Positions 34,238-37,728 of a stretch of 44,465 nucleotides of DNA are shown here, piece by piece. The position numbers and the translations under genes were made by a program. How positions within the stretch are numbered: the stretch's first letter is position 1; every line of letters begins with the position of its first letter. Below the pieces are notes generated by a model that was given only the letters and a program-made list of their open reading frames with translations, was not told where the DNA came from and did not search any database. Source of the DNA: a bacterium (GTDB lineage: Bacteria > Patescibacteriota > Minisyncoccia > Minisyncoccales > JANBVM01); the NCBI GenBank assembly GCA_030588745.1, contig JAUUXB010000005.1:1-44465 (forward strand), read 5' to 3'.

Positions 34238-35935
34238 ATGAAAAATCCATCTTTTATTTTAATCATTTCAATCATTGTTTTTTTACCTATTTTTGTTAAT
34301 GCTGAACAAATCCTAGGAGATTCAGTTAGTTTTTACATTGAACCTTCTTATGATTCTTTAAAAAGAGAACAAATCCAAGCTACTTTAAGAGAGATTTCTC
34401 AAAAAGCATATTGGTATGTAGATAATGATTGGTGGAATGGATTAGAAGAAAACGAACAACTTGAAATGAATAATGCAATAACTGCTTTGTCTCAAGAATT
34501 CACAACTAATATCTATCCTGTTTTAACTCAGAATTTTGGCTCTGAATGGAAACCAGGAATAGATAAAGACTCAAGGATTACAATTCTAATACATCCAATG
34601 AATGAGCAGGCTGGTGGTTATTTTAACAGCGCTGATGAATTTCCAAAATCTCAAATACTTACTTCAAATGAAAGAGAGATGATTTATTTTAATGCCCTGT
34701 ACTTAAACACAAGTTTAGCAAAAAGCTTTCTGGCCCATGAGTTTCAACATCTTATTTCTTTTAATCAGAAAGAAAAAACCTATGGTGTTTCTGAAGAAGT
34801 CTGGTTAAACGAAGCACGCTCAGAATATGTTCCAACATTGCTGGGTTATAATGACAGCTTTGAGGGAAGTGATCTTCAAAGAAGGATAGAGAATTTTCTA
34901 GATAAACCTTATGATTCTTTGACTGAATGGAAGAGCCTTCCATATGACTATGGAGTGACAAGTTTGTTTATACATTATTTAACTGACCATTATGGTGTGA
35001 AAATCTTAATAGATTCTTTAAAGAGCTCTGAAACAGGCATCAACAGCTTGAATTCTACTTTACTTAAAACTGGATTTAAAGAAAACTTCAGCCAGATTTT
35101 CACTGATTGGACAATTGCTATTTTAGTTAATGATTGCTCTTTATCTGCCAAGTATTGTTATTTAAATGATAATTTAAAGAGCCTAAAACTAAATCCTTTA
35201 ATTAATTACCTTCCTTCTATTGGCAAGAGCGTTTTATCAGTTTCTAATACAACCCATGACTGGGCAGGCAACTGGCACAAATTCATTGGCGGTAATCACG
35301 GAGATTTAAAAGTGGAATTTATAACTTCTCCTTTGACTAAGTTTAAGATTCCTTACTTGGTTCAAAATAATCAAGGAGATTTATCAATTACTTTTTTGGA
35401 ACCAGACAATAAAGGAGAAGCAATTATTTATGTTCCTGATTTTGGTTCTAAAAATGTTTCTTTAACAATTATTCCTTCTGCTCAAAACAAGATATCAAAC
35501 TTTTCAGAATCAGAAACACCTCTTTCTTTTTTCTGGTCTGCTTCAACCATTGAAGAAGAGGATCAGCAGAATCAAGAGCAGGAGTTAATAAACAAGCTTT
35601 TAGCGCAGATAGAGGATTTACAAAAAGAGATAGCCAGACTGCAAGCTCAGCTAAATGCAGTTTTAGGGACAGGCGCAGCTTGTGAAAGATTTGATCAAAA
35701 TCTTTATTATGGAATGATGAATAATAGTCAGGTTGAATGTTTACAGGAATTTTTAAAATCTCAAGAAGCAGATATTTATCCTGAGGGACTTGTAACTGGT
35801 AATTTTCTTTCTTTGACAAAACAAGCAGTTATTCGTTTTCAAGAAAGATATGCCACTGAAATCTTAATTCCTATTGGTCTTGAAAAAGGCACTGGTTTTG
35901 TTGGGCCAATGACAAGAGCTAAAATTAACCAATAG
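34238..35935 (+). CDS. Secreted zinc-metallopeptidase-like protein with coiled coil and C-terminal peptidoglycan-binding domain
   Basis: Signal-like N-terminus; 'FLAHEFQHLISF' (HExxH at 34736-34750) and 'WLNEARSEY'; coiled coil 'LLAQIEDLQKEIARLQAQLNAVLG'; PG_binding_1-like 'VECLQEFLKSQ...TGNFLSLTKQAVIRFQERY...GFVGPMTRAKIN'. Confidence 0.8.
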   Translation: MKNPSFILIISIIVFLPIFVNAEQILGDSVSFYIEPSYDSLKREQIQATLREISQKAYWYVDNDWWNGLEENEQLEMNNAITALSQEFTTNIYPVLTQNFGSEWKPGIDKDSRITILIHPMNEQAGGYFNSADEFPKSQILTSNEREMIYFNALYLNTSLAKSFLAHEFQHLISFNQKEKTYGVSEEVWLNEARSEYVPTLLGYNDSFEGSDLQRRIENFLDKPYDSLTEWKSLPYDYGVTSLFIHYLTDHYGVKILIDSLKSSETGINSLNSTLLKTGFKENFSQIFTDWTIAILVNDCSLSAKYCYLNDNLKSLKLNPLINYLPSIGKSVLSVSNTTHDWAGNWHKFIGGNHGDLKVEFITSPLTKFKIPYLVQNNQGDLSITFLEPDNKGEAIIYVPDFGSKNVSLTIIPSAQNKISNFSESETPLSFFWSASTIEEEDQQNQEQELINKLLAQIEDLQKEIARLQAQLNAVLGTGAACERFDQNLYYGMMNNSQVECLQEFLKSQEADIYPEGLVTGNFLSLTKQAVIRFQERYATEILIPIGLEKGTGFVGPMTRAKINQ

Positions 35936-35938
35936 GAG

Positions 35939-35967
35939 TTGACAAAACATTTTAATTTTGCTATTAT
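35939..35967 (+). promoter_or_regulatory. Near-consensus sigma70 promoter
   Basis: TTGACA (35939-35944), 17 bp, TATTAT (35962-35967). Confidence 0.7.
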
Positions 35968-35972
35968 TTAAA

Positions 35973-36049
35973 TCAGTGAGTGTGGTTCTATTTATAGAAC
36001 TCCATTCTCAGTCGGCAAAAGCCCCTGCTTGCAGGGTCTTTTGCTTTTT
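35973..36049 (+). ncRNA. Candidate standalone small RNA, about 77 nt
   Basis: Starts about 6 nt after the -10; imperfect hairpin around GTTCTA-TTTA-TAGAAC; intrinsic terminator at the end; no ORF. Confidence 0.6.
36015..36049 (+). terminator. Intrinsic terminator of the candidate sRNA
   Basis: GCAAAAG-C-CCCTGC-TT-GCAGGG-T-CTTTTGC followed by TTTTT. Confidence 0.85.
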
Positions 36050-36143: not shown

Positions 36144-36602
36144 ATGAACCCAAGCAATAAAAAATCAAAAAACAGCAAAAAGGTTATAGTTGTAGCTTCT
36201 GGTTATTTTAACCCCTTACATGTTGGGCATGTTAGATATTTGAAAGAAGCAAAGAAGCTTGGAACAAAATTAATAGTAATAATCAACTCAGATGAACAAT
36301 CTAAGCTTAAAGGAAGTTTTGCTTTTATGAGCGAGAAAGAAAGGGCTGAAATAGTTTCTTCTTTAAAGTTTGTGGATGAAGTCGTCTTGTCAATTGATAA
36401 AGATAAAACAGTTTGTAAAACCTTAGAATTAATTAAACCGGACATATTTGCCAAGGGAGGGGATAGAGCGCTGGATAATATTCCAGAAAAGGAAGTTTGT
36501 CAGAAATTTGGCATTAAAATGGTTTTTAATGTTGGAGGAGGAAAAATTCAATCAAGCTCCTGGTTAATATCTAAATGCATAAATGGAAAGGATAAACAAT
36601 AG
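36144..36602 (+). CDS. Cytidylyltransferase-like nucleotidyltransferase (RfaE C-terminal/TagD-like)
   Basis: 'VVASGYFNPLHVGHVRYLKEAKKLG', 'SEKERAEIVSSLKFVDEVVLS', 'FAKGGDR'; upstream TATAAT at 36125-36130. Confidence 0.85.
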   Translation: MNPSNKKSKNSKKVIVVASGYFNPLHVGHVRYLKEAKKLGTKLIVIINSDEQSKLKGSFAFMSEKERAEIVSSLKFVDEVVLSIDKDKTVCKTLELIKPDIFAKGGDRALDNIPEKEVCQKFGIKMVFNVGGGKIQSSSWLISKCINGKDKQ

Positions 36603-36650
36603 GATTTTAAGAATCTCTTTTCTTTTTTTAAATAATACTTTAAAATGTAA

Positions 36651-36755
36651 ATGGATCAGGAGGATAGCACTCACTAAAGACTTAGAATAGGAGTAACTCT
36701 CCTGGTCCATAGGAATGTAAAAATATGCTCATTTTTCCACTCCTATGGATCAGGA
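36651..36755 (+). promoter_or_regulatory. murB leader with mutually exclusive hairpins and a duplicated start region
   Basis: 36699-36714 can pair with 36651-36662 (12 bp) or with 36741-36755 (15 bp, including the murB start codon). Confidence 0.6.
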
Positions 36756-37728
36756 ATCAATAAACAGCATTCCTGGCATACAATTTAATGTTTTGTTAAA
36801 AGATTACACAACATTTAGAATTGGGGGTAGGACAAAGTATTTTTTTATTGCCAGGACAAAAAATGAGTTAATTGAAATTATTAAGTCAGCAAGAAGAAAC
36901 AACTTGCCGTTTTTTATTTTAGGAGGAGGAAGCAAGCTATTGATATCTGATAAGGACTTTAATGGGCTTGTAGTAAAAATTCAGAACTCAGAATTTAAAG
37001 TTCAAGATTCCCAGATTTTCGCAGGAGCAGGTGTTTTAACCCCAAAACTGATAGCAATTGCTCTTGATAACAACTTAACCGGCTTAGAATATTTAAAAGG
37101 AATACCAGGAACAATTGGTGGTGCAATCAGAGGAAATGCTGGAGCTTCTGGTGGTTCAATAACAGGCTTTATAGGTGATGTGATAAAACAGGTTGAAGTA
37201 TTTGATAAAAATAAAGAAAAGATTAAAGTTTTTAAAAACAAGGAATGTCGATTCAATTACAGAACCAGTGTTTTTAAAGAAAATCAGAGTTTAATTATTT
37301 TATCTTGCATTCTTCAATTGAAAAAAGGAAACAAATCAGAAATTGAAAAAAGAATGAATGATTATTTAGAGTATCGTAAAAAAAACCAGCCTCTAAACTT
37401 TGCTTCTTGTGGAAGTATTTTCAAAAATTATGTTTTAAGTAAATCAGAAGTTTCTAATTTTAATAAAAAACTAATTAAAGAATTTCCAGAATTAGAAAAC
37501 TTTATTAAAAAAGGAACAATTCCTGCAGGTTATTTAATTGATAAGTGCAATCTAAAAGGAAAAATTATTGGAGGCGCTAAAGTTTCAGAAAAACACGCAA
37601 ACTTTATTGTTAATTTTAAAAATGCAAAAGCAAAAGATGTTAAAGAATTAATAGATTTGATAAAAAATAAAGTTAAAGATAAATTTAAGATTGAATTAGA
37701 AGAAGAAGTTCAGTATTTTAACTTTTAA
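36745..37728 (+). CDS. murB: UDP-N-acetylenolpyruvoylglucosamine reductase
   Basis: 'LLKDYTTFRIGGRTKYFF', 'ILGGGSKLLIS', 'GIPGTIGGAIRGNAGASGG', 'CRFNYRTSVFK', 'PAGYLIDKCNLKG'. Confidence 0.95.
   Translation: MDQESINSIPGIQFNVLLKDYTTFRIGGRTKYFFIARTKNELIEIIKSARRNNLPFFILGGGSKLLISDKDFNGLVVKIQNSEFKVQDSQIFAGAGVLTPKLIAIALDNNLTGLEYLKGIPGTIGGAIRGNAGASGGSITGFIGDVIKQVEVFDKNKEKIKVFKNKECRFNYRTSVFKENQSLIILSCILQLKKGNKSEIEKRMNDYLEYRKKNQPLNFASCGSIFKNYVLSKSEVSNFNKKLIKEFPELENFIKKGTIPAGYLIDKCNLKGKIIGGAKVSEKHANFIVNFKNAKAKDVKELIDLIKNKVKDKFKIELEEEVQYFNF

Follow-up and report, generated by a model that had tools for sequence, protein, structure and literature searches.

Patescibacteria form a large group of very small bacteria, most of them uncultured. 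In this study, we sought to explain an arrangement at the start of murB in one of them, a member of the Minisyncoccales (assembly GCA_030588745.1, contig JAUUXB010000005.1; the whole stretch of 44,465 nucleotides that was analysed is referred to here as the window). The sequence ATGGATCAGGA occurs exactly at 36651 and again at the murB start (36745), and the DNA between the two copies can pair with either of them. A sequence-only reading of this locus had proposed that the leader controls murB translation, by way of a leader peptide or of a fold switch. The question that the locus raises is what the repeated start region is for, and whether it takes part in the regulation of murB.

Results

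The murB start and its two hairpins

The reading frame that begins at 36745 is a bona fide murB gene (Table 1), and both of the stems described for its leader can be drawn. CTCCTGGTCCAT (36699-36710) pairs with ATGGATCAGGAG (36651-36662) over 12 bp including one G-U, and TCCTGGTCCATAGGA (36700-36714) pairs with TCCTATGGATCAGGA (36741-36755) over 15 bp, also including one G-U. The two small open reading frames (ORFs) that had been reported, MDQEDSTH (36651-36677) and one of 12 codons (36725-36763), are likewise there. The start-codon hairpin is longer than had been noted, with 25-nt arms (36700-36724 and 36731-36755) that are 88% complementary, and the fold of 36640-36790 has an energy of -42.1 kcal/mol, compared with -26.6 +/- 3.5 kcal/mol for shuffled sequences (z -4.4; 0/200). 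Absent from the sequence-only reading were the conserved loop of the leader and a coevolving partner RNA about 0.7 kb upstream.

An 11-bp direct repeat around 83 bp, together with a strong palindrome, is what a MITE-like insertion with target-site duplication would leave behind, and a palindrome may also arise by chance. The leader element is, however, present in a single copy in its own genome, and both helices have undergone compensatory evolution. The covariation of the stems, described below, refutes the repeat or transposon reading, and we regard the probability of an insertion or a chance palindrome as negligible.

Table 1. Positions of the features of the murB locus in the window
Feature	Coordinates	Strand	Basis or remark
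RNA B promoter: TTGACA (35939-35944), 17 nt, extended -10 TGC-TATTAT (35962-35967)	35939-35967	+	sequence
RNA B, predicted small RNA of about 75 nt: B1 (5' end), hairpin H1, B2, intrinsic terminator	35975-36049	+	match to model R2
B1 block, AGUGAGUG	35975-35982	+	complementary to A1; coevolution
B2 block, ACUCCAUUCUCAGUC	35999-36013	+	complementary to A2 (GACUUAGAAUAGGAGU); coevolution; duplex -17.4 kcal/mol
RNA B intrinsic terminator (predicted)	36014-36049	+	terminator-like hairpin with T-rich tail; conserved in model R2
-10 box TAAAAT of the RNA A/murB transcript (predicted)	36641-36646	+	no good -35
RNA A, conserved murB leader, containing the upstream copy of the repeat	36652-36709	+	model R1, E 9.5e-17 (sequence itself in model)
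P1, 5' strand	36652-36662	+	pairs with 36699-36709; double compensatory changes at each of the 11 pairs, 95 sequences
A1 block, CACUCACU	36668-36675	+	pairs with B1; coevolution
A2 block, GACUUAG-AAUAGGAGU	36679-36694	+	pairs with B2; coevolution
P1, 3' strand, common to P1 and the start-codon hairpin	36699-36709	+	covariation of P1 and of the alternative hairpin
Genus-specific alternative hairpin, core arms 36700-36714 and 36741-36755	36700-36755	+	excludes P1 and buries the murB ATG; fold and covariation
murB, UDP-N-acetylmuramate dehydrogenase	36745-37728	+	NF010480, 291 bits (cut-off 259); FAD_binding_4 and MurB_C

A conserved RNA ahead of murB

Comparison of the regions upstream of MurB homologues from 80 related genomes revealed a unit shared by many relatives, in which a GC-rich helix, P1, surrounds AGC-ACUCAC-UAAA-GACUUAG-nnnn-GGAGU-nAACU. 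Its two most conserved blocks are CACUCACU and GACUUAG. Searched with a covariance model (R1), this element, RNA A, was found in 113/247 genomes of the order, in nearly all as one copy, and in 60 of the 384 genomes of a class sample that includes order members. A phylum-wide sample gave few matches and none outside the class, and exact-core matches in a public genome collection were limited to records of Parcubacteria, Paceibacterota, Nealsonbacteria, Wildermuthbacteria, the Patescibacteria group and 'bacterium'. Neither RNA A nor RNA B, its predicted partner, had an Rfam match at the gathering threshold in the window, and scans of both regions at E<=10 remained far below the thresholds. In the alignment of RNA A, 93% of cells are paired and 229 are double-changed, compared with 42 in shuffles. 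On these comparative grounds, RNA A is a conserved RNA family and P1 is a real helix; the upstream copy of the repeat is the 5' strand of this closing helix, in a leader RNA of about 58 nt.

In 98 of 118 loci murB follows RNA A in the same orientation, with its first in-frame ATG most often 4-20 nt away; a further 12 had no murB match in the stretch examined. In the remaining eight RNA A is divergent from murB, demonstrating that it can exist apart from this gene, and a T-run follows P1 in several of these divergent loci.

In 68/118 loci, a hexamer that matches TATAAT at five or more of its six positions ends exactly 5 nt before P1, accompanied mostly by no recognisable -35 (mostly 3 of 6 positions). 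A -10 box 5 nt ahead of P1 implies that the transcript should start at P1, which in the window places the predicted start at about 36652-36653 and, consequently, the ATG of the MDQEDSTH frame at or just upstream of the transcript start. This bears on the proposal that stalling of a ribosome on this peptide drives the fold switch. The ORF is present and overlaps P1, and the congener G001 has a GTG-started equivalent; the frame is not conserved in other families, however, and is not kept outside the genus as a leader-peptide attenuator would be. Its TAA stop lies inside the conserved A1-A2 block, and its likeness to the start of MurB is forced by the pairing arm that the two regions share. We therefore consider stalling on this peptide highly improbable.

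A predicted start-codon switch in the window's genus

Among 89 loci with the leader and murB, a strong hairpin covering the ATG was found only in the window's genome (G000) and in G001, the single congener among the genomes compared (0/200 shuffles each). As a general feature of the leader, the start-codon hairpin was accordingly rejected. The sequence-only reading had taken an unrelated leader in relatives as the finding that would count against it: the leader itself came through this comparison, standing ahead of murB in most loci, whereas the hairpin, absent outside the genus, did not.

The MurB proteins of G000 and G001 are 70% identical, and their start-codon hairpins keep 14 of the 15 pairs, with one lost, through three double compensatory changes and two one-sided, pairing-compatible ones; covariation at the level of the genus thus means these two genomes. 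At one site three strands change together, with A to G in the 5' strand of P1, T to C in the shared arm and A to G in the start region. For G000, the calculated energy is -38.6 kcal/mol with P1 enforced, -39.6 kcal/mol at the free minimum and -34.9 kcal/mol with P1 blocked, so that the two folds differ by no more than a few kcal/mol; in this model the free ensemble buries the start codon, which becomes only partly unpaired when P1 is enforced. The conservation of both helices in two genomes supports a switch between P1 and the start-codon hairpin in the window's genus and, given that P1 competes with the hairpin burying the start, a closed P1 would mean a freer start codon. The fold-switch half of the original control idea is thereby upheld for this genus, through the compensatory changes between G000 and G001, while the leader-peptide half, with an ORF that other families do not keep, finds no support.

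Comparative evidence therefore identifies the duplicated start region with its two hairpins as the putative expression platform of one genus, built on a conserved leader RNA. The direct repeat at 36651 and 36745 is a by-product: its copies are alike because a single middle arm is the pairing partner of the 5' strand of P1 and also of the murB start region.

A predicted small RNA upstream of RNA A

In many genomes a second unit is found upstream of RNA A, consisting of TTGACA, 17 nt, TGC-TAATAT, AGUGAGUG, a hairpin, CUAAGUCG and an intrinsic terminator. The RNA predicted from it, RNA B, begins 677 nt upstream of RNA A in the window, where its covariance model (R2) matches 35959-36048, the -10 box included. 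Model R2 finds RNA B in 134/247 genomes of the order. RNA A and RNA B occur together far more often than expected by chance: of these 247 genomes, 101 have both, 12 only RNA A, 33 only RNA B and 101 neither (odds ratio 26, p 4e-26). Of the 97 loci with RNA B, 83 show TTGACA intact at all six positions and equally spaced. From these promoters we predict strong transcription of RNA B and weak transcription of RNA A.

By sequence, RNA B has the attributes of a trans-encoded small RNA (sRNA), namely its own promoter and intrinsic terminator, a position apart from its target, and conserved complementarity to it. Hfq (PF17209) was not found in the window's own genome, which is about 96% complete, while control genomes were positive.

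Two protein-coding genes adjoin RNA B in the window. Between RNA B and RNA A lies a nucleotidyltransferase gene (36144-36602; HldE-C/glycerol-3-phosphate cytidylyltransferase-like) with a promoter-like site of its own, which had a match in none of the other 117 loci examined. Upstream of RNA B, 34238-35935 encodes a secreted HExxH protease-like protein with a weak match to a peptidoglycan-binding domain; in three class-level genomes (L078, L085, L088), it is RNA A that is followed by a homologue of this protein.

RNA A and RNA B coevolve

RNA B contains two blocks, AGUGAGUG and CUAAGUC, whose complements are the two conserved blocks of RNA A, CACUCACU and GACUUAG, respectively. Where RNA A leaves the consensus, RNA B changes to match. 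Mutual information was computed for all 4838 pairs of 59 RNA A columns and 82 RNA B columns from 95 genomes, in alignments made without regard to A:B pairing. The five best of these 4838 inter-RNA column pairs are predicted A:B pairs, and they form two antiparallel diagonals (A17-24/B23-16 and A28-31/B48-45). In support of this, duplexes of each RNA A with its own RNA B are more stable than those with permuted partners (0/20000 for each block; z -12.6 and -16.6). With one genome for each of 36 families, a sampling that reduces the effect of kinship among the related genomes compared but does not remove it, the median z was -10.3 and in none of 200 draws did a permutation equal the true pairing.

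Individual base pairs had changed on both sides in many families, for example in nine for A24-B16, in nine for A28-B48 and in seven for A31-B45. Covariant A/B pairs include GGACAAATG/CATTTGTCC (L086), GGTCCTCAC/GTGAGGACC (L111), GTCTTAC/GTAAGAC (L037), CACCCACC/GGUGGGUG (G027), GUCUUAC/GUAAGAC (G058), GGUCCUCAC/GUGAGGACC (G091) and GGACAAAUG/CAUUUGUCC (G437), and in G056 both blocks have changed (CGCUCAC/GUGAGCG and AACUUAG/CUAAGUU). A strict pattern search for covariant RNA B with both blocks changed gave 0 matches; in G027, B2 has one extra base, and model R2 recovers an RNA B of this kind. At the level of comparative sequence analysis, pairing between RNA A and RNA B can be taken as established.

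One family, f10 (L081, L114, L131, L133), has an RNA A without GACUUAG; its RNA B pairs by means of CUCCAAUUC with GAAUUGGAG of RNA A.

A metabolite riboswitch for murB, with RNA B as an unrelated neighbour, was our first idea, since RNA A is a conserved, structured leader of a biosynthetic gene and has alternative folds. It was dropped because the conserved core is complementary to RNA B and coevolves with it: the most conserved positions of the supposed aptamer follow the sequence of another RNA, as those of a ligand pocket would not. There is also no Rfam match, and we hold this explanation to be very improbable.

The order of the blocks is parallel, the 5' block of RNA A pairing with the 5' block of RNA B and the 3' block with the 3' block, and not nested as in an antisense duplex. 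With P1 closed, a four-way junction could form between P1 of RNA A, A1:B1, H1 of RNA B and A2:B2; judging from the connectivity, the far ends of the two intermolecular helices could be joined by the short AAA linker of RNA A. RNAcofold does not show the A:B complex, returning an energy equal to the sum of the two monomers, because the two A:B helices are pseudoknotted relative to each other.

Possible read-outs and gene context in other lineages

Most lineages have no hairpin that competes with P1, from which it follows that the switch of the window's genus is not the general output of RNA A. Upstream of murB in G056 (L018:1276-1430), a long hairpin uses the 3' strand of P1 and is followed by seven T. 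In genus g64 of family f23 (L140, L144, L146), the 3' end of P1 takes part in a short hairpin (for example GACCC-ATAA-GGGUC) with T after it. By their sequences, these P1-excluding hairpins look like terminators. In the window's genus, in G056 and in the one f23 genus, P1 thus excludes a structure that appears inhibitory, and P1 would be the permissive state. In most loci P1 ends near the murB ATG, often with 3-7 T after it. Where P1 has no competitor, a weak terminator may be formed by P1 itself and the few T behind it. Whether control is positive or negative may, then, depend on the lineage.

The usual gene order, which is not complete everywhere, is a Wzy-like TPR protein, a metalloprotease with a peptidoglycan-binding domain, RNA B, RNA A, murB, HPF and SpeD. 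RNA A stands ahead of a metalloprotease homologue, instead of murB, in three class-level genomes. A leader role for whichever gene lies downstream fits the copies of RNA A that precede genes other than murB. In view of the divergent and stand-alone copies, the A:B complex may also act independently of such a role.

Some arrangements were seen in single lineages. In G125 (L051:1501-1600), the gene directly after RNA A is not murB and encodes a PilB-like ATPase of type II/IV secretion. G122 (L123:2319-4115) has two nearly identical copies of RNA A, with unrelated flanks, that flank an AbiEi/AbiEii toxin-antitoxin module. In family f18 (L016, L042, L047), RNA A and RNA B are convergent, with their 3' ends about 10 nt apart, and murB is divergent from RNA A.

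Discussion

We propose that RNA A would serve as the 5' leader of murB, transcribed from its own promoter, with P1 closing a loop that holds A1 and A2. RNA B, transcribed separately, would pair with it in trans, the 5' end (B1) with A1 and the linker before the terminator (B2) with A2. Binding would bias the equilibrium of P1, most simply by stabilising it. In the window's genus, RNA B would hold RNA A in its P1-closed form, the murB start would be freed and translation of murB would increase. Taken as a whole, control of the murB leader by two partner RNAs is, in our judgement, probable. From the comparisons we infer that RNA B is expressed and binds RNA A in vivo, and that this binding controls murB. 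On the sign of control our expectation is evenly divided, between activation on the one side and repression or a lineage-dependent outcome on the other.

In its repressive form, the pairing of RNA B with A1 and with A2, which contains GGAG, would stabilise P1 beside the start codon, or P1 as a terminator, and murB would be turned off. This is a variant in sign of the explanation that we prefer, and the two overlap. That P1 ends close to the murB ATG in most loci, often ahead of 3-7 T, lends support to repression, as does the predicted strong transcription of RNA B versus the weak transcription of RNA A; repression is a common outcome when a small RNA pairs with a leader. In the window's genus, G056 and the one f23 genus, however, P1 excludes the inhibitory-looking structure, and its stabilisation there should activate. 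Repression is, on this evidence, a serious possibility to which we give somewhat less than even weight.

Alternatively, RNA A and RNA B could be two pieces of one structured RNA or ribonucleoprotein with a housekeeping or sensing role, in which case the downstream position of murB would mainly reflect a conserved gene order, and control through the leader would be secondary. P1, the A1/A2 core and H1 would form a compact joint structure, the neighbourhood from the Wzy/TPR protein to SpeD is often syntenic, and RNA A persists in divergent loci with a T-run of its own and away from murB in several lineages. Against this, RNA A is ahead of murB in 98/118 loci, mostly within about 20 nt of the start, a position from which a murB transcript begun at the RNA A promoter would have to include RNA A, and the lineage-specific structures that exclude P1, acting on the start codon or involving T-runs, resemble expression platforms. 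We consider such a two-piece RNA unlikely. A broader form of the partner-RNA model, which we put forward as tentative, is that RNA A and RNA B make up a dedicated bipartite sensor or particle that works without Hfq and is held together by two parallel-ordered helices around a four-way junction. Across a class of Patescibacteria it would control envelope genes (murB and, elsewhere, a secretion ATPase or a secreted metalloprotease), and the read-out attached to P1, such as start-codon burial or a terminator, would differ between lineages.

Our search of the literature, with most subscription journals and preprints outside its reach, found no regulatory RNA pair in Patescibacteria. Together with the Rfam scans, the sequence evidence points to a two-RNA control system previously undescribed in the literature available or in Rfam. 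If the model holds, bacteria with very small genomes, including one in which Hfq was not found, possess a conserved RNA:RNA control device, and an RNA partner is tied to a committed step of peptidoglycan synthesis. Seldom is base-pair coevolution between separate RNAs so clear across dozens of families, and the natural compensatory variants are ready-made test mutants.

T-box leaders sense tRNA, a structured RNA that they recognise at two sites in the same 5'-to-3' order, and recognition is coupled to competing leader helices. RNA A resembles them as a leader with competing helices that would recognise another structured RNA at two separate sites; its predicted partner, however, is a dedicated small RNA and not tRNA, and no T-box match was found in the Rfam scans of the window or of the RNA A and RNA B regions. 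In CopA-CopT of plasmid R1, an antisense RNA and a leader, two hairpin RNAs are joined by two intermolecular helices in a four-way junction. Two intermolecular helices and a possible four-way junction are features that RNA A and RNA B would share with this pair. CopA is, however, a cis-encoded full complement of its target, whereas RNA B comes from a separate stretch of the same strand and matches RNA A in two short blocks, whose order is parallel and not nested.

Like Hfq-dependent trans-encoded sRNAs, RNA B is predicted to be a separate small RNA with its own promoter and intrinsic terminator that pairs with a 5' leader. Those sRNAs have many targets recognised through short seeds, whereas here one target leader has been identified and both sides coevolve, in a genome in which no Hfq was found. 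CJnc190 and CJnc180, an sRNA and its RNA antagonist, are likewise a pair of partner RNAs. The antagonist is reported to be cis-encoded (PMC8687705), which sets that pair apart from RNA A and RNA B. With translational riboswitches and attenuators, the murB leader shares mutually exclusive helices that bury or free a start codon or form terminators. It differs from them in its putative sensing core, which, unlike a ligand pocket, coevolves with an RNA.
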